Below are positions 76 to 16,387 of a stretch of DNA of 34,517 nt, one piece after another. The notes under the pieces were generated by a model, which did not search any database, had not been told where the DNA came from, and was given only the letters and a program-made list of their open reading frames with translations. Each line of letters opens with the position of its first letter. Position 1 is the stretch's first letter. Origin of the DNA: Pseudohongiella sp. (lineage in GTDB: Bacteria > Pseudomonadota > Gammaproteobacteria > Pseudomonadales > Pseudohongiellaceae); NCBI GenBank assembly GCA_030696315.1, contig JAUYSM010000009.1:1-34517 (forward strand), read 5' to 3'. Position numbers and translations under genes: made by a program.

Positions 76-1887
76 CTAACTGACCATCGCCTTCACAATT
101 GCCCTTCTCAGCACCTCATAATCCACCGGCTTCACCAACACCTCAAACCCCGCCGCCTTGATCTCTGCAAGCCGCGCACTCGCCGCATTGGCTGTTGCCA
201 TGATGATGTGTTGTTTCGGGATTTTTGCGGACAGCTGTATTGCAATATCCAGCCCCATTACATCGTCATGCAACATGTCATCCATCAAGACCAGATCAAA
301 GTCACTTTCATAAGATAACAAGCGATCCACCTGTTCTGGCGACGATGCGCTGATGGCCGAGCAACCCCAGGTCCTTAAAAGGCCCGTCATCGCATCCAGA
401 ATTGACGCATCATCATCGACAATCAGAATCCTCAAACCGGCAAAATCCATTTGAACGGTATCCATTTCGTCATCACTGATCTCTTCCATATCCGGCAGAT
501 CAACGAGTGCGGACAGCGGCACATGCACATTAAACGTGCTACCTGATCCTACCTGAGATTTGAGCGTTATTTTTAATGCCAGAAGCGCCGCAATGCGTTT
601 AACAATTGCCAGGCCCAGGCCGGAACCTTTGCTTTTGCTACGCGCTTTATTACTGACCTGAAAGTAATCACGGAAAATCTTGTCCTGATCCTCAAGGGAG
701 ATACCAACACCGGTATCAATAACTGAAATTACCAGACCATTGCGCTGGCGTCGCATTTGAATACTGACCGAACCTTTGTCGGTGTACCGCACGGCATTAT
801 TAACAAGATTGCGCAGCAATCGTTCCATCAGCAACATATCGGATTTCACCACAACCGGTATGCTGTACAAATGCAAGGCTACGTTCTTTTGCTGTGCATC
901 CTGCGCAGCACCATCCGCGATGTTTTTTAGCATCAGATCCAAGCGGAACCTTGATTCGTCTGCGGTCACAACACCGGCATCAAACTTGGACAAGTCCAAC
1001 AGACTGTTAAATTGTTCATGCAAAATTGTGCTGGTTTCGTCAATTTTATCGAGCAGTTCCTGGGTACGACCATCGGTGACCGTGTGTCGCAAACTACCCA
1101 AAAACAAAGTCATTGCATGCAAAGGCTGGCGCAGATCATGACTGGCAGCCGCCATAAACCGATTTTTTTCCTCATTGGCCTGACGCGCTACGTTTAACGA
1201 CTTTTCAACCAGCAGTTTGTCTTTTTCCAATCGGATGTTTTGTTCACGATTTTCCTCTCGAATACGAATAGATTCGTTAAACACCTCTGCGCTTCGCTTG
1301 CCAAACTCCGTTAACAGAATGGTAATGGCCAGCATGGCAACGCCGGCCTCCATATCGGCCGGCTCAGAAACCAACAGCAGAAAAACCACCCCCTGCCCCA
1401 GGTTGCTGACTAGCAACCAGGTAAACCCGCGGTTCTGAATAGATGAGTTGATGGTTGTCCCAATCGCATAAATTAGCGTAAGCAACGCCACTGCAAAAAC
1501 AACGCGCTCGTCACCTCCCAAACAAATCCACCAGTATCCCGACCCAACAGCAAGTGTGCTGAGCAGCGAACTGAAGTACAGCATCAGCTCATTGCGATAC
1601 AACACGGGAACTGTACTGTGGGCAATGCGCTTTTCAATCTTTCGGCAGATCAACGCTCTGATGATAGCCAGCACCACAATGATGCCAAGCCAGGCTGACA
1701 GTCGGTCAGTGTCCACCTCGTTCCAAAGCCCGCCGAGATAAAACAGACTGCTGACAACAACCAGAATCAGCGCACGCTCCGACTGAAGCACCCGCATGCG
1801 CTGAGACTCAACAATTTGACTGAACAGCAGCGGTTCCAGCACTTGATCATAGCGCGAGAATCCGGTGATTTTTTCCAAGAGCTTCAC
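76..1887 (-). CDS. Membrane-bound hybrid sensor histidine kinase
   Basis: This 603-residue inner-membrane sensor kinase has a fused receiver. Residues about 40-195 hold roughly six hydrophobic segments with no recognisable periplasmic sensor domain, and a helical linker follows (about 205-245). The HisKA domain carries the phosphoacceptor His250 in the motif SHDLRQPLHAM, typical of one hybrid-kinase subgroup. The ATPase domain shows the N box (RNLVNNAVRYT, 359-369), G1 (DTGVGI, 391-396) and G2 (GSGLGL, 421-426). The C-terminal receiver (about 486-600) keeps the acidic pocket D491-D492, phosphoacceptor D536, T565 and K586, so it looks phosphorylation-competent. Translation starts at a GTG with AAGGAG seven bases upstream. 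The gene is 22 bp after the large fusion gene on the same strand, with the LuxR-type regulator as first gene, so kinase and regulator probably form one pathway. The signal sensed is unknown. Confidence 0.93.
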   Translation of the reverse strand: MKLLEKITGFSRYDQVLEPLLFSQIVESQRMRVLQSERALILVVVSSLFYLGGLWNEVDTDRLSAWLGIIVVLAIIRALICRKIEKRIAHSTVPVLYRNELMLYFSSLLSTLAVGSGYWWICLGGDERVVFAVALLTLIYAIGTTINSSIQNRGFTWLLVSNLGQGVVFLLLVSEPADMEAGVAMLAITILLTEFGKRSAEVFNESIRIREENREQNIRLEKDKLLVEKSLNVARQANEEKNRFMAAASHDLRQPLHAMTLFLGSLRHTVTDGRTQELLDKIDETSTILHEQFNSLLDLSKFDAGVVTADESRFRLDLMLKNIADGAAQDAQQKNVALHLYSIPVVVKSDMLLMERLLRNLVNNAVRYTDKGSVSIQMRRQRNGLVISVIDTGVGISLEDQDKIFRDYFQVSNKARSKSKGSGLGLAIVKRIAALLALKITLKSQVGSGSTFNVHVPLSALVDLPDMEEISDDEMDTVQMDFAGLRILIVDDDASILDAMTGLLRTWGCSAISASSPEQVDRLLSYESDFDLVLMDDMLHDDVMGLDIAIQLSAKIPKQHIIMATANAASARLAEIKAAGFEVLVKPVDYEVLRRAIVKAMVS

Positions 1888-1909: not shown

Positions 1910-4900
1910 TTAGTGACCTGCTTTGACTAACGCGCTTTGGTAGGCACGGCCTGACATCGAACCATCGGCAGCATAGGCTTGCACCGTCAATTGCATGCCA
2001 TCATCTGGATCAATATCGAGCCGGACAAAGTGTCTGGGGTGATCCGTCAACAGATATTGCCGACCCGTCCACTGAATAGCACTTTGCCCATCTTCCAGCA
2101 ACAACCCAAACGAGGTACCCCAATCATAAGCTGCAGCTTGCGAGTTGATAAACGGGAGCGGCGCATTTAATCCAGAGCAACAGATCTGCGTGATAGATAC
2201 CGACCCTTGATCACTGTTCGCGCTCAGCTCAACCACACAGGACAGATGAGGGTCGCCGGTCAACCATATCACGTGGGAATCTGCGGCGTGCTGCAGAATC
2301 AATGCAACCACTTTCGCCAGGAAACCTGGATATGCCAACAAACCATCTTCACGGCACAACAGATCCGGGTACGCGACCTTGGATCTGGAAACAGGGCCGA
2401 TTGGCGACCCACTGCACAGCAGGATCACCGGGCTACCGCTTTGTTTGATCAGCCATTTTTCAAGGGCTTCAAGTTGTTTGTTGCTCAACAACCCAGACGT
2501 GAGGCTGTCCGATGCGTCACTATCGCTGCGCGTATCAAACACAAAGGCTGGATACCCGGCACACTGGAAGTTGTACCAAAGGTCAGCACGCTCTGTATCC
2601 CAATGCGGATGCTGATGCATTTGATACAACCCTGCCATTCTGCGCGCATATGTCAGGGTGTCATCATAGGGACCGCGCCAGTTATCCCTGAACTCGTGGT
2701 CATCAAGTACCAGCCAGGTCGGTAGATGGGAAAACACATATGCCACATCGGGATGAGAGAATGCCAATCGGTAGGCGTTGCGATAGCGCTCGTAATGTGA
2801 CTTGGGATCAAACAGATCAGCACTGGCATCTGCATAGATTTGATCACCGAGCAGTATCAATCCATCCACCCCGCGTAAGGCAGAACCGGCAGGTTCGGTC
2901 AGATGTGAGCGCATGCCTGCAAACGCAGAGAACGCGCCATGCCTGTCAAACGGCAAACCCGGATACAGGCAGGAACCTGCCAAGATACTCAAGGGGCGAT
3001 GTTTGCCAGCCTGATTGTCACCCGCAACCGGATATTCGCCTGTGCACACGCGCTGAAACCAGGCCATGTCTGACCAGTCAACGACCGCACTTTGCCTGGG
3101 CATAAGACTGCCCGCCGGCGTGAGCTTGCCGTAATCCAGTGAAAAATTGAATTTGCCGTCAGCAGAACCCGGAAATTCAACATCGTGCAACCAGAATTCG
3201 TGGCGCCACAACGCTGACTCGTCAAATTGGAAAGTGACAGGATTTAAAGCAAGGTCACCGCCAGTGTCGTCTTTATACGGCAAATGGCTGACCATCACCT
3301 CGCAGGAAGCAGACTCCACTCGCACGCCGCTTGCGGCGTGCACCTGAAAGTCTTCGGCTTCTACCCAGAGTCGGACGGACACCCGGCCATCTGACTGGCG
3401 TTGCGGTGACGATATGATCGGCCCCGTCCTCGGCGCGGATGTTACACAATGCTGAACAGGATTGTGTGAACTGGCACGGCAATTGTTCATGAACCACGCA
3501 CGCGCCGCCGCCGACGACAGCCGCTTTTTTGCAAACCCGGTAAGATCGTCTTGTGTTGCAGCCGTAAAAAATTCATGTAAGCGCGGATACACCTCCAGGT
3601 TGGCGCGCTTGCTGAAAATCATGTCCATATGGCCGTAGTCATTCAACACTTCAATCCAGACCTTGTGCGCCGCATAATCTTCCGGCGCCAGCTCATCTGT
3701 GCAGGTGTTGCCGGTGTCGCGGAATCGTCTGAGGCGGGTCAACTGATCCGCAGACTGACGCGAAGATTCCTTATCAAACACTGTGTTCCGGTTGCCATGT
3801 AAAAACAGTGTCGGGAATTGCCAGTACTGATTAAACGCACTTTCGCGCACGTAGGCGTTTGCGCCTTCGTGATTTGACAGCAAACCGCGCGTCATTGAGA
3901 AATACACCTGCTGCATGACACCAATGGGTACCGGCCCAATCATGCCAGCAAATTCTTCACGGGTTGCTCGAGCAAGGTTTTTGTTGAACCATTGTCTCCC
4001 CCAGAAAATGGTGTAGCGCGTGTAGATGCTTTGCGCAAATCCGGGACCTCGCCAATCACCAAATCCGCGCAAGCTGCTCCATTGTTTACGCTCATCAGCG
4101 GTCATCGCCAAGGCTGCGAGCCGATCATAAACCGTCTCAAGAAATTCCGGTTCCTTATGTGGCAAGGGTTCGATTGTTTGAATGGGCTCAAACTCTTTAA
4201 ACCAGGCCCAGACATTCGCACGTGCACGATTCTCCGCAGACGCGTGCAACCACGGTGTGACCGCATGCGGTACTAAAGATGCCAGCATACTGCGACGCAC
4301 AAATGATCCGTCTGGCAGGCGCTGTTCATAGTCCAGTTTGCCCGCCAGCACCGCCATGGCAACAGCGCCCGCACCAATACAATGCGAGAACACGTGAATG
4401 TGACGCTCGTCGCCGGGTGGGGATAACTGGTTGACCTGATTAAAAATGGTCTTGACCGCCCAAGGCACGTCCACCAAGGCAATGTCATCCCAGCGATCTT
4501 CAGGATTTATTTCGGTGACATAGTTGGCACTGGCGCGATGATCCAGCACCCAGACATCATAGTTTCTCGCCAGAAAGTACTGCACAAAATTGCAGGCGAT
4601 GGTGTCAGTCCAGAACACACGACTGCTATGCGCCAGACCATGCACCAACAACAATGTTTGACGATTGCCTGAATTGCCATCGCATGGCTGGTAACGAACA
4701 AGGCGGCTGAGCGGCTGTGGTTTACCCGCATGCCCGTTGCTTTGTTCATACTTTTCGCGCGGCAGACTTTGTTTTTTACCGCCCGGCCCATAGTGAACAA
4801 AAGCAGGTGGTGCAGCAAATCGCCCTTGTTTGGGCGCTCTTTCAATGTCACTGCGCTGTGCAAATTGTTTGTAAGCCGGGGCAGCAAATGACCAGAAATG

Positions 4901-7666
4901 TGTATTCATGATCATACGCAAAAAGTACATGGCAACGCCGCTGGCTGCCATGACCGAACTGGGCGTGTCGGGTGATGAGGTAATCTGTAAGGCCGAAGGG
5001 CCATTGCTGATGCGCACAGCATCAATTTCAAAGTTTAGTTTTCGGGAAAAGCCACGGCTGTTCTGTGCCTGCACCGGCAATACCATGAGCGCCGCCAGCA
5101 GGTCTGGTAACACAATGCTGTAGGCCAGCGTTTTTTTACCAGTCAGCGTCAGGCCTTGGTCCGAACTGAACCCATAACGCAAATAGCGCGGCTGAGATTG
5201 CAGACGCGCTATTCTCAGAAAGTCTTTGAGCTGTTGCAGCAGCGTTTTATCCGAAGGTTTTGTCAGCACATCCTTGCGGTTTCGCCAACTTTGTTCAGAC
5301 AGCAATAGCGCCTGCAACCGGGCAGGCAGTTTGACCAGCACGTCCATACTGCGGTAGCGAAGAAACCTGAGTACCGCAGCACACAGGCGAATGTTTTGCC
5401 GGATGGCACCCGGCGCACTTTGATCTGCCACACCCAGAAAAACCTGACCATTCAATTCAGCAAGCTTCACCAGATCGACATCCGGTGTCGTAAACACACC
5501 ACCTTTAGTATCTGCGCTAAACACTGCTCGGGCAGTCAGCCCGTGATGCGGATGCATGATCCACTGATCAAGCGATTGTTCTCCTGAAAACGCAACACTG
5601 ACGTCAAGCACCAGCGCTTTAATATCGGGCGGCAGGCGGACATCCGGCAACAGGCGCTGTATATCCGCTTGCCTCGGCACTACAGCGGAACTCCAGGGGA
5701 AAACCGAGCGTTTGCGGGTATCCACGTGACACACAAGGCGCTCGTTAAAACGCGCCTCAACTTTTCGAGCATCCGGCTTGGGAATGGGCCAAGGAACGCC
5801 TGCCGGTATCTTTCTGAACATGGTCAGCGCCGGAAAGCTGTTGGTATCCATGGCACCGGGCTGAGGGCTGGCCATTGATTCAGCCTGCTTGCACAGCATC
5901 GGCAGACAGATCTCTGTTGCCAGCGCATAACTGACACTGGCAATCGTCAACATCGGGTTAGTGCCAATTGCCCCCGGGATGATTGAGCCATCCAGCACAT
6001 ACAGATTTTTATACACCGCAAGGGTATCGGAGTCGGTGTTGTCATTGATAAACACTTGACCGCGTGTGTTCACAACGCCGTTGTTTACAGACTCGGCCAT
6101 ACAACAGCCGCCCAGTGGATGGACAGATATCAGCGTGCCCTGCAGCGCGTCGGCACCCTCAACTATCCCGGCGAAACCGGCCGGCAATGGCTGTGAAATC
6201 AAATTGGGCGAAAACAGTCCGCCATCAAAAACATCTGTTTGTTTGTTGAACAACGTGGCATGCAAACGCTCAAAATAATCCCCTGGTGTGCGTCGCCAGT
6301 CTGGTTTTAATTCATCCTTGTGCCAGCGCAGTTGCCCACTGGCGTTGTCGTGGCCCATCACCAGCAGGGTCTGGGAATGTTCAGCCAGTTTATTGGAAAT
6401 TGCCAATGGATCGTGTGTCGGGTTCTGTGTATGCCAGGCCGATAGTACGCCATCGGCAAAACGCCCCAGCAAGGTCTGTGACACAATCATTTCTTGCCAG
6501 ATCTGGTGCAATGGAAACGGCACCAAGGCATCTTCCAAGCGGAAGCGCTGCTTGAATGCCGGCCCGGAAGCATCTTGCGAACCGGCAGGTTCAAGTGCAA
6601 TGGCTGCGATACCACTGATGGTGGGGCCAGGCTGAGTACTGGCGGGCAATTCGCCAGGTATCGATGCCAGGTCATTCACTTTCTGACGCTGCCCGGTCGC
6701 AGCAAGCAATGCATCACCGTTTAGCGAGAACTGTTGACCCAGTTTTTCTGACAGACGCAAACCTTTTTGTTCAGCGGAACGCTTCAGAATCTCGGTGCTG
6801 CCCAAGGTGCCAGCCGCGAGCACAACAGTCCCTGCGTGAACACGCACCAACTCATTGCTGTTGGCGGTTGGCGCGCATTCAATCAGCCAGCTGCCATCCG
6901 CCAAGGGATAGAGACTGCGGACTCGGATGCCGGTAAACAAGGACGCTCCCAACTGCCGCGCCAATGGCCAGGCATTCATATTCAGGGAGCCTTTGGCACC
7001 GGAGTGACAGCCAATCACACAATTGCCACAGTGGTTGCACTTCTGATGATCTGCGCTGTGCTCTGACGGCCCATTAAAATTGATCGACACAGGTGCTGCG
7101 TCCGCCTTGCTACCGAGTGCTGCCGCGCTGGCAGCCATGGCACTGAAGCTGCCATTACTTGCGATCAATGGGTTAGTGTTCACACCCAACAGCTTTTCGA
7201 TTTTGCGGTACACCAGCGACAGGCGAGTGTGCCAGTCAATCTCAGCATTGCCGGGCCAGTGCGCTAACACCTCCGCCTCTACCCGCGCCGCCACATTGGC
7301 GTTGACCAGTGAGGTGCCGCCCAGACCACGCGCACTGATGGTGACAGCCCCCTCTCCGACGCGTACATCCCACAGTGCCGAATTATTGAGCGTGTTAACA
7401 CCCACATATCCCGGCATTTCCGACATGGTTTTAGGGAAATCATCTGGCAGATACTCACGGCCCGCTTCAAACACCCACACGGCGGGTTGCGTCGGGGTCT
7501 GTCGCGATTCCAGCAAGCCCAGCGCAGCCATAGCCGCGCCGTAACCGGACCCCACAATCAACACATCGGTTTTGATTTCAAACTGCTGTTGAGCCTGGTT
7601 GTCAGAAAAAGGGAACCCCTGCCTGGCGAGCAAGGATTCTATCGGTTCTGACAACCAGTGACTCAC
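1910..7666 (-). CDS. GMC oxidoreductase / alpha-beta hydrolase / PhoD-like phosphatase fusion
   Basis: This 1918-residue protein carries three enzyme modules. Module 1 (about 30-600) is a GMC-type FAD oxidoreductase of the cholesterol-oxidase-like branch. It has the dinucleotide motif GSGYGA (39-44), a ferredoxin-like cysteine motif C210/C213/C216/C220, HPLGGC (516-521), and GTNPMLTIAS near the module end. Residues about 600-960 match no family I recognise. Module 2 (about 970-1350) is an alpha/beta hydrolase, with LLLVHGLAHSSR near 1005 and a nucleophile elbow SHCIG that puts Cys1096 where Ser is usual; a late GHMD supplies the likely catalytic His. Module 3 (about 1400-1900) resembles PhoD alkaline phosphatases (GDQIYAD near 1605, DDHEFRDN near 1655, TGDPHLSC near 1800). 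No signal peptide is visible, so it is probably cytoplasmic, unlike exported PhoD enzymes. The GTG start overlaps the regulator stop by four bases (GTGA), implying translational coupling. Substrate unknown; an alcohol/sterol- or lipid-like compound is an inference. Confidence 0.88.
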   Translation of the reverse strand: MSHWLSEPIESLLARQGFPFSDNQAQQQFEIKTDVLIVGSGYGAAMAALGLLESRQTPTQPAVWVFEAGREYLPDDFPKTMSEMPGYVGVNTLNNSALWDVRVGEGAVTISARGLGGTSLVNANVAARVEAEVLAHWPGNAEIDWHTRLSLVYRKIEKLLGVNTNPLIASNGSFSAMAASAAALGSKADAAPVSINFNGPSEHSADHQKCNHCGNCVIGCHSGAKGSLNMNAWPLARQLGASLFTGIRVRSLYPLADGSWLIECAPTANSNELVRVHAGTVVLAAGTLGSTEILKRSAEQKGLRLSEKLGQQFSLNGDALLAATGQRQKVNDLASIPGELPASTQPGPTISGIAAIALEPAGSQDASGPAFKQRFRLEDALVPFPLHQIWQEMIVSQTLLGRFADGVLSAWHTQNPTHDPLAISNKLAEHSQTLLVMGHDNASGQLRWHKDELKPDWRRTPGDYFERLHATLFNKQTDVFDGGLFSPNLISQPLPAGFAGIVEGADALQGTLISVHPLGGCCMAESVNNGVVNTRGQVFINDNTDSDTLAVYKNLYVLDGSIIPGAIGTNPMLTIASVSYALATEICLPMLCKQAESMASPQPGAMDTNSFPALTMFRKIPAGVPWPIPKPDARKVEARFNERLVCHVDTRKRSVFPWSSAVVPRQADIQRLLPDVRLPPDIKALVLDVSVAFSGEQSLDQWIMHPHHGLTARAVFSADTKGGVFTTPDVDLVKLAELNGQVFLGVADQSAPGAIRQNIRLCAAVLRFLRYRSMDVLVKLPARLQALLLSEQSWRNRKDVLTKPSDKTLLQQLKDFLRIARLQSQPRYLRYGFSSDQGLTLTGKKTLAYSIVLPDLLAALMVLPVQAQNSRGFSRKLNFEIDAVRISNGPSALQITSSPDTPSSVMAASGVAMYFLRMIMNTHFWSFAAPAYKQFAQRSDIERAPKQGRFAAPPAFVHYGPGGKKQSLPREKYEQSNGHAGKPQPLSRLVRYQPCDGNSGNRQTLLLVHGLAHSSRVFWTDTIACNFVQYFLARNYDVWVLDHRASANYVTEINPEDRWDDIALVDVPWAVKTIFNQVNQLSPPGDERHIHVFSHCIGAGAVAMAVLAGKLDYEQRLPDGSFVRRSMLASLVPHAVTPWLHASAENRARANVWAWFKEFEPIQTIEPLPHKEPEFLETVYDRLAALAMTADERKQWSSLRGFGDWRGPGFAQSIYTRYTIFWGRQWFNKNLARATREEFAGMIGPVPIGVMQQVYFSMTRGLLSNHEGANAYVRESAFNQYWQFPTLFLHGNRNTVFDKESSRQSADQLTRLRRFRDTGNTCTDELAPEDYAAHKVWIEVLNDYGHMDMIFSKRANLEVYPRLHEFFTAATQDDLTGFAKKRLSSAAARAWFMNNCRASSHNPVQHCVTSAPRTGPIISSPQRQSDGRVSVRLWVEAEDFQVHAASGVRVESASCEVMVSHLPYKDDTGGDLALNPVTFQFDESALWRHEFWLHDVEFPGSADGKFNFSLDYGKLTPAGSLMPRQSAVVDWSDMAWFQRVCTGEYPVAGDNQAGKHRPLSILAGSCLYPGLPFDRHGAFSAFAGMRSHLTEPAGSALRGVDGLILLGDQIYADASADLFDPKSHYERYRNAYRLAFSHPDVAYVFSHLPTWLVLDDHEFRDNWRGPYDDTLTYARRMAGLYQMHQHPHWDTERADLWYNFQCAGYPAFVFDTRSDSDASDSLTSGLLSNKQLEALEKWLIKQSGSPVILLCSGSPIGPVSRSKVAYPDLLCREDGLLAYPGFLAKVVALILQHAADSHVIWLTGDPHLSCVVELSANSDQGSVSITQICCSGLNAPLPFINSQAAAYDWGTSFGLLLEDGQSAIQWTGRQYLLTDHPRHFVRLDIDPDDGMQLTVQAYAADGSMSGRAYQSALVKAGH

Positions 7667-8433
7667 TGCAACTGACTCTCTTCAATGGAGGGATTTTGAC
7701 TATACCGATCCGCCTGATCCGGTTGAAAACCTAGTTTGGCAGCTGCATACACGGCCTCGGTGCGGTTTTGAACACCCAGACTGCGATACGCCATTGACAG
7801 GTGCGCTTTGACGGTGTGGTCTGAAATATCCAACTCTTTTGCGATGGTTTTGTTTGACTTACCCTGGATTGCCCTCATCAGCACCGCAAACTGGCGGCGT
7901 GACAAGGTGTGCCCGTTGTCCTGCATCGCACTATCAGGCATCGAACTATCAGCCATTGAACTATCAGCCATTGAACTATCAGGCATCGCAATGTCAGGCA
8001 TCGAGCTGGCTGAAATTTGCGGCAGACGGACTGCGCCGAGGGGTTTGAGGGCATGGCTTGGCAAGTAGGTTCCCCCACCCAGCACCACCTGCAACGCGCT
8101 GACCAGCACATCGCGTGACGACGACTTTGGGATAAAACCCGCTGCGCCATGTTCGATGGCCTCTCTGATGATGCGCGCATCCTCTTCACCAGAAACCACC
8201 ACCAGACTGGCACTCTCAAAATGTTCACGACATCGATTCAGCGCTTGCATGCCATCCACACCCGGCATGTAGAGATCCAGCAGCACCAGATCAAACCCGA
8301 TACCCGGGTCCAACGCCAGCGCACTGTCCAGATCTCGAGCCTCGGAGTACTGAACTTTGTTGTCCAGTACCGGCAACAAATACTTTAGCCCTTCACGGAA
8401 CAGATCGTGATCATCAATTAATAGAATCCGCAT
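7663..8433 (-). CDS. LuxR/NarL-type response regulator with a pentapeptide-repeat linker
   Basis: This 256-residue DNA-binding response regulator has a receiver at residues 1-125 (acidic pocket D7-D8, phosphoacceptor D53, conserved K103) and a LuxR-type helix-turn-helix at about 176-240 (TLSRRQFAVL, then KTIAKELDISDHTVKAH). The linker between them (144-173) is six pentapeptides of the form [SA]M[PAQ]D[SIN], encoded by a 15-bp tandem repeat. The ATG at 8433 is preferred over an upstream in-frame start at 8523 because it has GGAG eight bases upstream and begins directly at the first beta strand (MRILLIDDHD). It is the first gene of the operon with the fusion enzyme and hybrid kinase, and is probably the kinase's partner. 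Its own promoter was not identified. Confidence 0.93.
   Translation of the reverse strand: MRILLIDDHDLFREGLKYLLPVLDNKVQYSEARDLDSALALDPGIGFDLVLLDLYMPGVDGMQALNRCREHFESASLVVVSGEEDARIIREAIEHGAAGFIPKSSSRDVLVSALQVVLGGGTYLPSHALKPLGAVRLPQISASSMPDIAMPDSSMADSSMADSSMPDSAMQDNGHTLSRRQFAVLMRAIQGKSNKTIAKELDISDHTVKAHLSMAYRSLGVQNRTEAVYAAAKLGFQPDQADRYSQNPSIEESQLQ
7926..8000 (-). repeat. 15-bp tandem repeat (about 5 copies) inside the response regulator
   Basis: Five consecutive 15-bp units lie at 7926, 7941, 7956, 7971 and 7986. They vary around TTGAACTATCAGCCA on plus and decay outward into similar but diverged units. Because the unit is a multiple of three, copy-number change would lengthen or shorten the receiver-HTH linker without breaking the frame. 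The two central units differ least, as expected of recent slippage. Confidence 0.85.
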
Positions 8434-8541
8434 CCGTATTCTCCTTGCCGTCTCGCCAATGATTGTAGTCGGGCAAGCATACCTATGTTGTTGTTTGTTT
8501 GGTAAGGCCGAACTGTGGCACAAGTGCGCGCATCCAGCGAC

Positions 8542-11722: not shown

Positions 11723-14700
11723 ATGGAAACACCTTTGCGCTCTGAAAAAAGCCCTGTGCTCATTTCGATTATTTGCCGCAGCGTCAACCGCCCGACTCTC
11801 GCTCAAACCCTGGACTCTGTGTGTCAGCAGAGCTGGAAAAATATTGAGCTGGTCGTGGTTGATGCGCTTGGCACTGGCGCAATCACACTGCCAACGCTAC
11901 CAGCGCATATCACCTTACGTCTGGTCTGCACTGGCAAACAGCTGGATCGACCCAAAGCAGCAAACGCCGGCTTAAAGGCTGCACAAGGCGAGTATCTGTT
12001 GTTTCTTGACGACGACGACTGGATAGATGCCAAACACCTGCAGTCACTGATGCGCGTGATGCAGGCAGAGCCGGCAGTCAAAGTTGTCTACAGCGCAACA
12101 CAAATGGTCAGCGAACAAGGCATCAACACCGAGGACATCATCGCTGTCCCTTTTGATATCACAATGCTGCGGCGCGACAACTTTATCCCTATCCACTCGG
12201 CGCTTTTTTCGCGCGAGCTGTTGGATCTGGGCTGCTGTTTTGATGAGTCTCTGCCGATTTATGAAGATTGGGATTTCTGGCTGCAATGCGCCGAACACAC
12301 CCGATTTACCTTGCTGAACAAGGTCGGTGCCTATTACCGCATGGGCGGCGATTCTCGCACCATGCTTGAACAGCACCAGCAACGTTATCAGTCTGGTCAT
12401 CCCAGTGCGGACGCACGATCCAGGCTGCTCGAAAAATGGCGTTTGCGCTGGAGTGGCGCCGAATGGAATGCATTACTGGGTCTGGTTGATCAAACACCTG
12501 CACTGACTCAGCTGCACGACGAACTGAGTCAGAGCCATGGACTGCTGGATACACGCACGGCAGAACTCAACAAAACACGCAATCAACTCGAGCAGGTCGA
12601 GGCAAAACTCAAGGCTAAAAAAGCGGAGTTTCTGACCTTGCAACGCGCCCTTGCAGCGCTGCGCGGTGAGGCTGACTTACTCAGCGCCGCAGCAAATACC
12701 TTGCAAGAAAACAACCTGACTTTACATCGCGAGATTGAATCGCTGCAACGTGGCAGTGAGCTGCTGCGGCTGGATATTTCTGCACTGCACGATGACAAGC
12801 AGCAACTTTCCAGTGTGATCGAGCAGCTACAGTTTGAGCTGAACGAATCACAGCGTGCACTTGAGCAAACCACACAACGACTGTCGACATCACACGCACA
12901 GCTCGCAGCGACTGAACAAGCACTGGCGGACACGCAGGGGCAGCTTGACCACACAAGCGAGCAGTTGAACCTGAAAGTCAGCGAACTTGGCGATGCCAAC
13001 GCGGTCATTGCCCAAACGCAGCAACAATTACAAAGCACAGAGCACAAGATGCAGCTGCTGCAAAGCGACTATATCTCTTTGAACCTGGCTCATGAAGAAC
13101 TGGATCGCGGCGTCAAAGAGATCCTCAATTCGTTTTCATGGCGGGTGACAGCACCGTATCGCTGGATGCGCCACCGTCTTAACAAGTTGGTGGCCGCTGT
13201 CTTGCCGCGACGCACAGCCGGTAGCTTGTCCGGTGCTGTGCAACACCCGGCGCAACAGCCTGTCTCAAGCATTCAGGCGGGCATTGTGTGGCCGTCGGCT
13301 GAGCATACCGTGCTACCCGATCACTTCACTGTGCAGGGCTGGGCCTGGTCAAGCAACACGGTGGTCAGCGTACAGATATTTGTTGATCTGGATCTGTTTC
13401 ACGATGTCCACCCCCTGCCAGTTCATGACCGGCTTGAAGACGCTCAACGTATCGGTTTTGCGCGCCTGATCAGCACCATAGATCTGACGCCGGGGCAGCA
13501 TCAAATAAGCCTGGTGGCGTGTGACGAAAAGGGACAACAGACCCGTGTGTCACGCAACTTTATTTTTCAGCCGACAGTAACGGTATATCAGCGTTGGCTT
13601 CGTGACACCTCGCCAGATGCCGATGCATTACAGGCCCAGTCCGAAACATTGATTCCCTCTGATCGGACCTTCACCGTGCTGGTGCAATTTGATGATTCTA
13701 TCCATGCAGACGCGCGGCAACTGCCGGCACTTCGCGCTACGCTGATCAGCCTGGCCGCACAAACCTGCAGGGAGTTTGAATGCCTGATTTCAGCACCGAC
13801 AACTGATCAGACAGCGCTGCATGACCTGGTGCAATCCGTGTTGCCGGCCGCCAGACTCATCCGTCCGGACAACATCTGGCCGGCGCTGCAGGCCTGCAAC
13901 AGTACCGCGGTGTGTTTGCTGGCTGCGGGTGACGTGCTGCGACCCGATTGCCTGTGGCGGGTGGCGTTTGCATGGCAGGAAAACACCGTGCTGCTGTACT
14001 CTGACCATGATCAAATTGACAGCAATGGCAATGCCGTGTCGCCCATGTTTACCACGGAGTGGTCTCCGGATCGTCTGCTCAGTCAGAACTACGTTGGCAA
14101 CGTGTATTTTGCTGACACCCGGCACGTTGCCAATACAGACCCCGTTGACACACAAACCTCAAGCTGGCGCTTCAGCGTCTTGCTGGAACTGGGACTGCCG
14201 TGCAAATTCACTGACGTGACGCGCATCGCCGATGTGTTGTGGAGCGCTGCTGAACGCCCTCCCAGCGCGCGCGAGCATGAGCTGGCCGCAGAAACTCAGG
14301 CATTGACACGTTATCTGGAAAAACATGCGCTGCACGCCAAAGTTCAACCTATCGAAGGCAGTGAGTGCCGACGCGTGCAGTGGAGCCTAGCGCCGACACC
14401 ACTGGTATCCATCATTATCCCGACCACAGGAAATATGCGCTTCCTGAAGCCATGTCTGGACACCTTAAAAACCAGCACCTATCCGGCCATCGAGGTGGTG
14501 ATTCTTGATAACAGCCGCGGCAAATACCCGGATGGCATACAGTATGCGCACGAGCAAGGCGCCGTGGTCATCGATTGCAACGAAGCATTCAACTGGTCAC
14601 GCCTGAACAATATCGGGGCAGACAAAAGCCACGGCGAACTGCTGCTGTTTCTGAATGATGATATCGAGATTATTCAGCCAGACTGGCTGGAAGAACTGGT

Positions 14701-16387
14701 TGCGCAAGCATTAAGAGACGATGTGGGCACCGTAGGCGCGCTGCTGTTGTATCCCAATGGCGCGATACAGCATGGCGGCGTGTTTCTGGTGGATCATGGT
14801 GGCGGTGCCCGGCACTTGTTCCACAAGCAACTGCCCGGCAAAGGCATTTACGGTGAACTGGACAAATGTGTTCGTGAGGTATCCGGCAATACCGGTGCCT
14901 GCCAGATGATCAGGCGCGACCGCTTTGAACAACTCGGGCGCTTTGATGAAAAACTGTCGATTGTTGGCAACGACATAGATCTGTGTATGCGCGCCCTGGA
15001 AGCCGGACTTCGTAATGTGTGGACACCTCACAGCCGACTGATTCATCACGAAAGTGTCAGCCGCCAAAGCAAACCCATCGGGCAAGATGAAAAGGCCATG
15101 TGGGATCGCTGGCAGCATCGCTTTCTGGGCGGGGATCCTTACTTTAATCCTAATCTGGATCTGACCCGCGAAGACTATGTGCTGGCACCTGTGCCAAGCG
15201 CCAATCCCGTGGTAGTAGCAGCAACCGACACGCTGGCCGAAGGCGCAGCAACAGCAAATGAAAGCGGCGTGCACCTGATCGCCTATATCCGCGCCAGCAT
15301 GGGCGTTGGCGAAGCAGCGCGCGGCAACGCCGCCGCATTGGAAGCCTCCGGGGTGCCGTTTGGTATTTTGAACTACGAAAAGGGTAATCCATCACGCATG
15401 GATAACCTGCGCTGGCAGCACCGGGAAATTTCCAAGCCGCGCTATGGCATCAATCTCATCCACATCAATGCAGATCATACGCCCGGCGTCATGAAAGATC
15501 TGGGCAAAAATTGGTTTGGGCAGCACTACAACATCGGGTTCTGGGCGTGGGAAATGCCAGAGTTCCCTGACCGATGGCTGGAAAGTTTTGACCTGCTGGA
15601 TGAAGTGTGGGTACCGTCGGCTTATGTCAATCAGGCTGTCTCTGCCAAATCACCCATCCCTGTGGTCACAATTCCACATATCATCAACGTTGATGTTGAT
15701 AGCGCGCACCAGTATTCACGTGCGTACTTTGGAATTCCCGACAAGGCCTTTGTTTTTATCAGCATGTTTGATACACACAGTATTGCGCAGCGCAAGAATC
15801 CCTTCGGCTCAATCATGGCATTCCAGAAAGCCTTTGCAGCCGACGATTCCTCGGTGCAGTTGCTGATAAAAATCAATAATGCCGACGAAGGCAGCCTGAA
15901 GGTATTGCGCAGCCTGGTCGGTGATTATCAAAACATTGTATTGCTCGATACTCACTTTGACCGGACGCAAATTGATTCATTGATCAATTGTTGTGATTGT
16001 TATGTGTCTTTGCATCATGCAGAAGGTTTTGGATTGGGACCTGCAGAAGCAATGTCACTGGGCAAAGTTGCATTACTGACCGGTTGGTCTGGTAACACTG
16101 AGTACATGCGCAGCAATAACTGTGTCGCCATTCAGTACACACTCAAGAAACTGGGCAAAGATTATGGCCCGTATGAGGCGCATCAACATTGGGCAGTGCC
16201 CGACGTTGATCATGCCGCAACTGAAATGCGAGATCTCGCGCATAATCCTGCGCGCGTCAAAGCAATTGGCGAGCAGGCACGCAAGACCATCCAACAGGAG
16301 TTTTCTGCAGCGGCTGTGGGTGAGCGAATGCGCCAACGCCTGCAAAGTATTGAGCGCATTCTTGATGCGCGTCGCAAACAACAGTAG
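11723..16387 (+). CDS. Multi-domain glycosyltransferase (GT2, coiled coil, GT2-like, GT2, GT4)
   Basis: This 1554-residue enzyme likely builds several linkages of a surface polysaccharide. Residues 10-235 are a GT2 domain (LFLDDDDW at 94-100; EDWDFW at 181-186). Residues about 260-465 are a long coiled coil rich in Gln, Glu and Leu. A motif FSWRVTAPYRW (471-481), common in such proteins, follows, then a beta-rich segment (about 520-615). Residues about 650-870 are a diverged GT2 domain (YSDHDQID at 759-766; EWSPDRLLSQNYVG). Residues 893-1145 are a canonical GT2 (VSIIIPTT, FLNDD, GNDIDLCMR). Residues 1183-1554 are GT4 (EGFGLGPAEAMSLG with the E1434/E1442 pair). No signal peptide or transmembrane segment is seen, so it probably acts on the cytoplasmic membrane face. 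The ribosome-binding site is weak and the start is eight bases after DUF484. Sugars and acceptor cannot be deduced. Confidence 0.93.
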   Translation: METPLRSEKSPVLISIICRSVNRPTLAQTLDSVCQQSWKNIELVVVDALGTGAITLPTLPAHITLRLVCTGKQLDRPKAANAGLKAAQGEYLLFLDDDDWIDAKHLQSLMRVMQAEPAVKVVYSATQMVSEQGINTEDIIAVPFDITMLRRDNFIPIHSALFSRELLDLGCCFDESLPIYEDWDFWLQCAEHTRFTLLNKVGAYYRMGGDSRTMLEQHQQRYQSGHPSADARSRLLEKWRLRWSGAEWNALLGLVDQTPALTQLHDELSQSHGLLDTRTAELNKTRNQLEQVEAKLKAKKAEFLTLQRALAALRGEADLLSAAANTLQENNLTLHREIESLQRGSELLRLDISALHDDKQQLSSVIEQLQFELNESQRALEQTTQRLSTSHAQLAATEQALADTQGQLDHTSEQLNLKVSELGDANAVIAQTQQQLQSTEHKMQLLQSDYISLNLAHEELDRGVKEILNSFSWRVTAPYRWMRHRLNKLVAAVLPRRTAGSLSGAVQHPAQQPVSSIQAGIVWPSAEHTVLPDHFTVQGWAWSSNTVVSVQIFVDLDLFHDVHPLPVHDRLEDAQRIGFARLISTIDLTPGQHQISLVACDEKGQQTRVSRNFIFQPTVTVYQRWLRDTSPDADALQAQSETLIPSDRTFTVLVQFDDSIHADARQLPALRATLISLAAQTCREFECLISAPTTDQTALHDLVQSVLPAARLIRPDNIWPALQACNSTAVCLLAAGDVLRPDCLWRVAFAWQENTVLLYSDHDQIDSNGNAVSPMFTTEWSPDRLLSQNYVGNVYFADTRHVANTDPVDTQTSSWRFSVLLELGLPCKFTDVTRIADVLWSAAERPPSAREHELAAETQALTRYLEKHALHAKVQPIEGSECRRVQWSLAPTPLVSIIIPTTGNMRFLKPCLDTLKTSTYPAIEVVILDNSRGKYPDGIQYAHEQGAVVIDCNEAFNWSRLNNIGADKSHGELLLFLNDDIEIIQPDWLEELVAQALRDDVGTVGALLLYPNGAIQHGGVFLVDHGGGARHLFHKQLPGKGIYGELDKCVREVSGNTGACQMIRRDRFEQLGRFDEKLSIVGNDIDLCMRALEAGLRNVWTPHSRLIHHESVSRQSKPIGQDEKAMWDRWQHRFLGGDPYFNPNLDLTREDYVLAPVPSANPVVVAATDTLAEGAATANESGVHLIAYIRASMGVGEAARGNAAALEASGVPFGILNYEKGNPSRMDNLRWQHREISKPRYGINLIHINADHTPGVMKDLGKNWFGQHYNIGFWAWEMPEFPDRWLESFDLLDEVWVPSAYVNQAVSAKSPIPVVTIPHIINVDVDSAHQYSRAYFGIPDKAFVFISMFDTHSIAQRKNPFGSIMAFQKAFAADDSSVQLLIKINNADEGSLKVLRSLVGDYQNIVLLDTHFDRTQIDSLINCCDCYVSLHHAEGFGLGPAEAMSLGKVALLTGWSGNTEYMRSNNCVAIQYTLKKLGKDYGPYEAHQHWAVPDVDHAATEMRDLAHNPARVKAIGEQARKTIQQEFSAAAVGERMRQRLQSIERILDARRKQQ

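Follow-up and report, generated by a model that had tools for sequence, protein, structure and literature searches.

A three-part protein of Pseudohongiella joins GMC oxidoreductase, cysteine-type hydrolase and PhoD-like modules and is encoded beside a hybrid histidine kinase

The window analysed here, a stretch of 34,517 nucleotides, is one contig (C114) of a Pseudohongiella genome of 117 contigs and 3.96 Mb. Three of its genes form an operon on the reverse strand (as do all features of the fusion given below) in the order LuxR-type response regulator, fusion and hybrid histidine kinase. The regulator (7663..8523), recognized by domain search, is the first gene, and its stop codon and the GTG start of the fusion overlap by four bases (GTGA). 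The fusion ORF itself occupies 1910..7666 and encodes 1918 residues. The kinase (76..1887) starts 22 bases past the fusion at a GTG preceded by AGGAG. Four transmembrane segments are predicted within its first 230 residues, ahead of HisKA, HATPase_c and receiver domains.

The fusion protein comprises a GMC oxidoreductase module (residues 1-600), a middle region designated LNK (about residues 630-935), an alpha/beta hydrolase module (residues 985-1400) and a PhoD-like module (residues 1405-1915). A preliminary description of this DNA had proposed, without naming a strand, that this single reading frame holds GMC and PhoD-like modules as well as an alpha/beta hydrolase of the Cys type, and a Pfam domain search bore this out. 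GMC_oxred_N matched residues 104-298 (E 7e-17, 62.3 bits against a cut-off of 23), GMC_oxred_C residues 512-577 (E 4e-9, 37.4 bits against 24.6), Abhydrolase_1 residues 1004-1316 (E 1e-5, with a score exactly at its cut-off, 25.8 bits) and PhoD (PF09423) residues 1576-1835 (E 4e-12, 46.4 bits against 27). A 1918-codon frame holding three kinds of domain far exceeds what chance could produce, and each enzyme module is a member of a known superfamily. The further proposal that all three catalytic modules are complete is supported by the near-complete conservation of active-site residues in each. A simple hydropathy scan detected no hydrophobic N-terminal signal, in agreement with the reported lack of an export signal. 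Among the matches listed, the closest relatives are from a Pseudohongiella sp. bin (98% identity over residues 1-1102) and UBA6173 (92%), and RefSeq labels one family member merely as an "alpha/beta fold hydrolase". A role in anti-phage defence was considered and dropped: the fusion had no match in PADLOC, and the regulator and kinase matched only weakly, which we put down to their generic domains.

The GMC module (5867..7666) is cholesterol-oxidase-like, cholesterol oxidase being the best match of its profile in the PDB (E 2.5e-48). The FAD dinucleotide-binding motif GSGYG (residues 39-43; 7538..7552) is invariant in 16 of 16 three-part proteins. Other conservation counts refer to the ORFs of the 80 loci described below plus the window, counting only rows with a letter at the position concerned. 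The catalytic His of GMC enzymes, found in HPLGGC (residues 516-521; 6104..6121) by alignment to cholesterol oxidase, is His516, which is H in 83 of 83 rows, and Asn570 (5957..5959), the second catalytic residue, is N in 82 of 83. The FAD motif, both Pfam domains above their cut-offs and the His/Asn pair place the module in the GMC oxidoreductase superfamily. Cholesterol oxidases (PDB 1b8s and 1b4v) share the GMC motifs, and their HPLGGC His and NP Asn align with those of the fusion. In contrast to cholesterol oxidase, the fusion chain joins further enzymes, falls well short of the cholesterol oxidase equivalog NF058674 (117 bits, with 850 needed) and has a four-Cys motif that is absent from the two cholesterol oxidase sequences compared. 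This C-x2-C-x2-C-x3-C motif (C210, C213, C216 and C220; 7007..7039) reads as originally reported and is a possible Fe-S site. Each Cys is kept in 83-84 of 84 rows, and Fer4 models on the fusion protein scored below the Pfam cut-off. The motif suggests that the GMC module probably contains an Fe-S cluster. The FAD glucose dehydrogenase of Burkholderia cepacia, also a GMC enzyme, is reported to have a 3Fe-4S cluster and a loop with Cys residues at 212, 213, 218 and 222 (PMC6719666). By comparison of motifs and residue numbers only, the two proteins have in common a four-Cys loop ending in C-x3-C, whereas the spacing of the first Cys differs and the B. cepacia enzyme passes its electrons to a multihaem subunit.

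The alpha/beta hydrolase module (3467..4714) is acid-lipase-like by Pfam, profile and predicted fold. Its nucleophile elbow reads SHCIG, as first described (S1094 to G1098 with Cys1096; 4373..4387), and Cys1096 is C in 72 of 73 rows. The catalytic His, H1346 (3629..3631), is conserved in 72 of 72 rows, and Asp1348 is kept in 70 of 72. In the predicted model N1294 (3785..3787) lies just past the strand at 697-702 (residues 1286-1291 of the window protein), the usual place of the acid after strand beta-7, and from this strand order we infer that position 1294 is the acid position. It is N in 66, S in five and T in one of 72 rows, and D in none. Since the residue at this position is Asn, Ser or Thr and never Asp in 72 sequences, the data suggest a Cys-His-Asn triad on an acid-lipase-like fold. 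In a profile search of the PDB with LNK plus the hydrolase, the matches were gastric lipase (2.8e-18), lysosomal acid lipase/cholesteryl ester hydrolase (8.8e-14) and PHA synthase (1.7e-4). Foldseek returned the same leading matches, the acid lipases, so profile and predicted fold both assign an acid-lipase-type alpha/beta hydrolase fold. The acid lipases 1hlg, 1k8q and 6v7n are thus the top matches, and 1hlg shares an HxD close to the C-terminus. However, the module lacks the Ser-Asp-His triad of these lipases, having Cys in place of Ser and Asn, Ser or Thr in place of the acid.

PHA synthases have a Cys nucleophile in a Cys-Asp-His triad. The preliminary description had likened the hydrolase to these enzymes, a comparison that holds in part. 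The PHA synthases 9knj and 5hz2 share the Cys nucleophile and gave a weaker profile match (the 1.7e-4 above), and a separate hydrolase homologue in locus L123 weakly matched the PHA synthase model TIGR01836 (1.3e-5). In contrast, among solved structures the module is closest to gastric and lysosomal acid lipases, the acid position of the module is never the Asp of PHA synthases (72 rows), the separate homologue reached 24.4 bits against a curated score of 365.3, and the window protein had no PHA synthase match among the curated (NCBIfam) models.

Between the GMC and hydrolase modules lies LNK (4862..5779), a stretch with no Pfam match at E values up to 1. Structure prediction for this part of the chain, residues 600-960 of which had been singled out at the start, gave a beta-rich domain with confident strands (AlphaFold mean pLDDT 80 for LNK alone and 85 for LNK plus hydrolase), and residues of about 630-935 are predicted by the model to be a domain of their own. 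The best Foldseek match of the LNK model in the PDB had an E value of 0.04, and nitrobindin, siderocalin and ADC-like barrels, all weak matches in that search, were rejected as its fold. In loci where the enzymes are separate genes, LNK mostly remains on the GMC protein (about 780 aa). The LNK model also matched the N-terminus of the hydrolase in L133 and proteins of a patatin-like cluster in four loci (L087, L091, L115 and L144; 44-58 bits), the Pfam patatin match behind the cluster label having come from another member, in L123. The first of these LNK-bearing proteins is at L087:13135-14676, and in three of the four loci a gene that is acetoacetate-decarboxylase-like by cluster lies nearby.

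The PhoD-like metallophosphoesterase module (1922..3454) was assigned by Pfam, conservation and a profile search of the PDB, in which Bacillus subtilis PhoD (2yeq) matched with an E value of 1.4e-19. C1566 (2969..2971), D1608 and Y1611 (2834..2845), D1655, D1656 and H1657 of the DDHE motif (2696..2704) and H1807 of the GDxH motif (2246..2248) are each present in 38 of 38 rows and, together with the domain score, place the module in the PhoD-like phosphatases (PF09423). C1566, D1608, Y1611 and the other conserved PhoD residues are candidate metal ligands. The DDHE, DTR and GDxH motifs align with those of 2yeq (the last reading GDVH there). Unlike B. subtilis PhoD, the module is fused and its identity to that protein is weak, and the hydropathy scan of the fusion gave no sign of the export signal of exported PhoD alkaline phosphatases. 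Eight separate PhoD-like ORFs also had N-termini without a clear signal, as judged by eye. PhoD modules elsewhere share 20-42% identity with that of the window.

The fusion was open over its full length in eight of 15 Pseudohongiella genomes, a set that includes the source genome itself (G000, G002, G005, G007, G009, G012, G013 and G014; about 30 residues of the G005 frame were unaligned). It was cut by contig ends in two (G004 and G011), interrupted in one (G001) and not found in four (G003, G006, G008 and G010, of which G003 is 85% complete). In a sample of 390 genomes of the order, seven outside the genus had long three-part frames (G044, G171, G264, G289, G308, G343 and G386). G054 was not counted as a true split version, its halves sitting at two contig ends. 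A scan of named genomes confirmed at least 563 relatives, and the loci of the best 80 of these, some from the same genomes as the numbered samples, were analysed. An intact three-part gene was present in 27 of the 80, 26 from Pseudomonadota and one (L075) from an uncultured bacterium of unstated phylum. In five loci (L089, L105, L118, L136 and L138) a two-part gene is accompanied by a kinase and a separate PhoD-like gene; five others were cut or interrupted (L071, L073, L083, L084 and L124) and 43 were unfused, with two-part genes, separate genes or, in seven, a GMC gene without a hydrolase found in the locus. Outside records labelled as metagenome bins, one-frame fusions occur in Hahella sp. 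HN01, Ramlibacter sp. Leaf400 and Acidovorax soli, and a plasmid of Ensifer sp. PDNC004 has the fusion annotated as one CDS.

These intact frames bear on the caution, raised at the outset, that the long frame might be an assembly artefact joining genes. Two-part and separate versions of the genes do exist. Because full-length single frames recur in other genomes (eight of 15 in the genus and 27 of 80 named-genome loci) and in an annotated plasmid CDS, and nothing in the window speaks for a frameshift, we consider an assembly join virtually excluded. The three-part fusion is real and is spread more widely than could have been known from one contig. In L073 (8010-15242, LSUCC0112) the fusion is interrupted into frames of 246 and 1597 aa and the kinase into 228 and 359 aa, which may reflect decay or sequencing error. 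Ramlibacter sp. Leaf400 has two divergent three-part paralogues (L077 and L126), each adjoined by a hybrid kinase.

The survey of homologues recommended earlier did find split forms, both two-part and separate-gene. The two-part GMC/hydrolase proteins (about 1130-1300 aa) have the same GMC module, the same Cys hydrolase and a shorter linker domain. They differ in lacking the PhoD module, often with a separate phosphoesterase gene nearby, and in lacking an adjoining hybrid kinase except at the five loci with a two-part and a separate PhoD-like gene noted above. Of the 43 unfused loci, 22 contain a phosphoesterase gene of PhoD or calcineurin type standing on its own (20 of these alongside a hydrolase), and none was found in the 27 three-part loci, indicating that the three-enzyme set recurs; in the other 21 unfused loci none was found within the flank read. 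This is not an independent count, because close relatives (e.g., several Cyclobacteriaceae) were counted separately and the models were partly built from such loci. Four of the 22 phosphoesterases are PhoD-like (those in L113 and L122 weakly so, below the Pfam cut-off) and 18 calcineurin-like. Of the latter, ten were assigned by membership of cluster 3, a single member of which was Pfam-tested (L123, 1.8e-4, just over the cut-off), and eight by a model whose three source sequences were Pfam-positive neighbours in other genomes; one of these eight, in L104, had no NCBIfam match. On an Azospirillum plasmid a gene annotated as a metallophosphoesterase (Pfam E 0.0014, below the cut-off) directly precedes the two-part gene.

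Split clusters also contain patatin-like and acetoacetate-decarboxylase (ADC)-like genes. Neither ADC-like genes nor relatives of the split-cluster patatins were found in the seven Pseudohongiella carriers tested. Of five carriers from outside the genus, two had ADC (G171 and G289), and G264 and G044 gave short patatin matches, as did the non-carriers G006 and G008. Given this patchy presence, the pathways of the fused and split forms need not be identical. Genes for RoxA-like cytochrome c lie near two-part or separate GMC genes at L065:13209-15140 and L098:14935-16830 (by Pfam) and in L104, L109 and L133 (by cluster membership), where the cytochrome is a possible electron acceptor.

A tree of the GMC module (83 rows after removal of two short rows, both from L073) was built by one quick method from one domain and is unrooted. 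All 28 three-part rows, window included, fell in one group of 36 (SH-aLRT 89, below 95), which further holds the five rows with a two-part and a separate PhoD-like gene and three contig-edge rows. Most two-part and separate forms, including the two-part gene of L149 with its separate PhoD-like gene, fell in another group of 43 rows (SH-aLRT 99). From these groupings, the fusion probably arose once, in Pseudomonadota. The tree would also fit later splits after a single fusion, although frameshifts in draft assemblies could mimic such splits.

Of the 27 three-part loci, 24 have a hybrid kinase, counted if it scored above 150 bits, no more than 400 bases from the fusion. One also adjoined five of the eight loci with a two-part and a separate PhoD-like gene, namely the five in the fused tree group, and none was found beside the other 43 unfused loci, including L113, L122 and L149, the remaining three of the eight. 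A receiver-type regulator ORF was nearby in 18 of 27 three-part loci by a crude rule that admits some of doubtful kind. The three-part loci without a hybrid kinase are L114, L116 and L119, the last two rhizobial and having instead a divergent guanylate-cyclase/AAA protein (L116:3630-7667 and L119:3677-7759); the Ensifer sp. PDNC004 plasmid (L068) has such a protein at 3597-7607. The kinase scored 316.4 bits against the 400 of the NahK/ErcS family NF041832, and four kinase N-termini matched no curated sensor family in NCBIfam. The kinase and regulator may control the fusion gene. In G008 (L157:3610-6164, one contig) the two genes adjoin one another beside lysA and no fusion lies between them, so the pair does not need the enzyme. 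Regulator, fusion and kinase were all absent from the stretches on the lysA side that were read in G006, G010 and G003, three genomes whose best kinase matches were distant (at most 31%).

What might the chain do? The explanation we favour, to which we give about even chances, is a cytoplasmic enzyme of three activities that probably serves a single pathway for an alcohol or ester of hydrophobic, lipid-like nature and was joined, probably once, in Pseudomonadota, mostly beside a hybrid kinase and often a response regulator. The GMC module would be an FAD-dependent, cholesterol-oxidase-type alcohol oxidase or dehydrogenase, the hydrolase, with its cysteine nucleophile, an acid-lipase-like hydrolase or acyltransferase, and the PhoD-type module a phosphomonoesterase or diesterase. 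The three activities would act in one pathway, and elsewhere neighbouring genes could supply the same three kinds of enzyme. A cytoplasmic lipid enzyme is favoured because two modules resemble lipid enzymes, patatin-like genes keep company with some split forms and an export signal is absent. Sequence data show the domains and their conserved catalytic residues, together with the gene order and the recurrence of the gene set, whereas one common substrate, its lipid nature and control or sensing by the kinase are what we infer. Bacteria of other phyla carry such enzymes as separate, adjacent genes, which probably act together, and this lends some weight to the original suggestion that the modules may take a single substrate through consecutive steps. 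It is rather unlikely that the modules were joined for co-regulation or scaffolding and have separate substrates, or that one of them just binds a ligand. The phosphoesterase may come from different families, and the two-part genes with a separate PhoD-like gene inside the fused group (the five named above) suggest that joining is not needed, unless these are draft-assembly frameshifts. Against this stand the joint conservation of the active-site residues of all three modules and the separate phosphoesterase that appears in unfused loci but never in fused ones.

The frequent company of the kinase raises the question of a signal. CqsA-CqsS is an enzyme-kinase pair, and the fusion could likewise make or destroy a diffusible or membrane lipid signal read by the adjoining multi-transmembrane hybrid kinase. 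This is consistent with the kinase beside 24 of 27 three-part genes and the five two-part genes with a separate PhoD-like gene of the same tree group, the regulator-fusion-kinase order with its four-base overlap, the four predicted transmembrane segments and the cyclase-AAA signalling protein divergent in two of the three kinase-less loci (the rhizobial ones). However, the four kinase N-termini tested matched no curated sensor family, G008 retains the regulator-kinase pair without the enzyme and it is common for a catabolic operon to have a two-component pair of its own, and we regard such a signal as distinctly unlikely. A bolder form, a widespread enzyme-plus-sensor cassette in which a single chain with phosphoesterase, flavin oxidoreductase and Cys-His-Asn acyl-transfer hydrolase activities, its orphan domain shared with patatin-like proteins and possibly recruiting lipid, makes or inactivates a lipid messenger for the kinase, seems improbable. 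Catabolism of sterol or steroid esters, in which the hydrolase would free the sterol, the GMC module oxidize it and the PhoD module strip phosphate, is quite improbable. Cholesterol oxidase and the acid lipases, cholesteryl ester hydrolase among them, are the nearest solved structures and would suit such a role, and G171 and G289, both three-part carriers from beyond the genus, have KshA_C (PF19298). This domain was not found in the other ten of 12 carriers (seven Pseudohongiella, G386, G044 and G264) in a check that covered the one steroid-degradation gene KshA, which argues against sterol degradation by the KshA route in Pseudohongiella, though not in G171 and G289. Moreover, the cholesterol oxidase equivalog was missed by far (117 against 850 bits), and both Ser and Asp of the hydrolase are replaced.

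Among the PMC articles listed in literature searches, titles and abstract openings yielded no description of the three-part protein, nor of the domain combination, the hydrolase Asn, the orphan domain or the kinase link. The two-component pair, the Asn at the acid position, the separate domain at residues of about 630-935 and the recurrent gene set all go beyond the preliminary description. If the favoured explanation of a cytoplasmic lipid enzyme is true, the locus would belong to an undescribed bacterial lipid pathway, often adjoining a two-component kinase; the acid-lipase fold would gain a Cys-His-Asn variant, and LNK would be a new beta-rich domain. The three-part chain indicates which enzymes probably work together ahead of any substrate, and the split clusters in other phyla offer independent genetic entry points. 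Elsewhere in the window, positions 11723-16387 encode a protein of 1554 aa in which, judged by eye, a coiled coil seems to join several glycosyltransferase domains.
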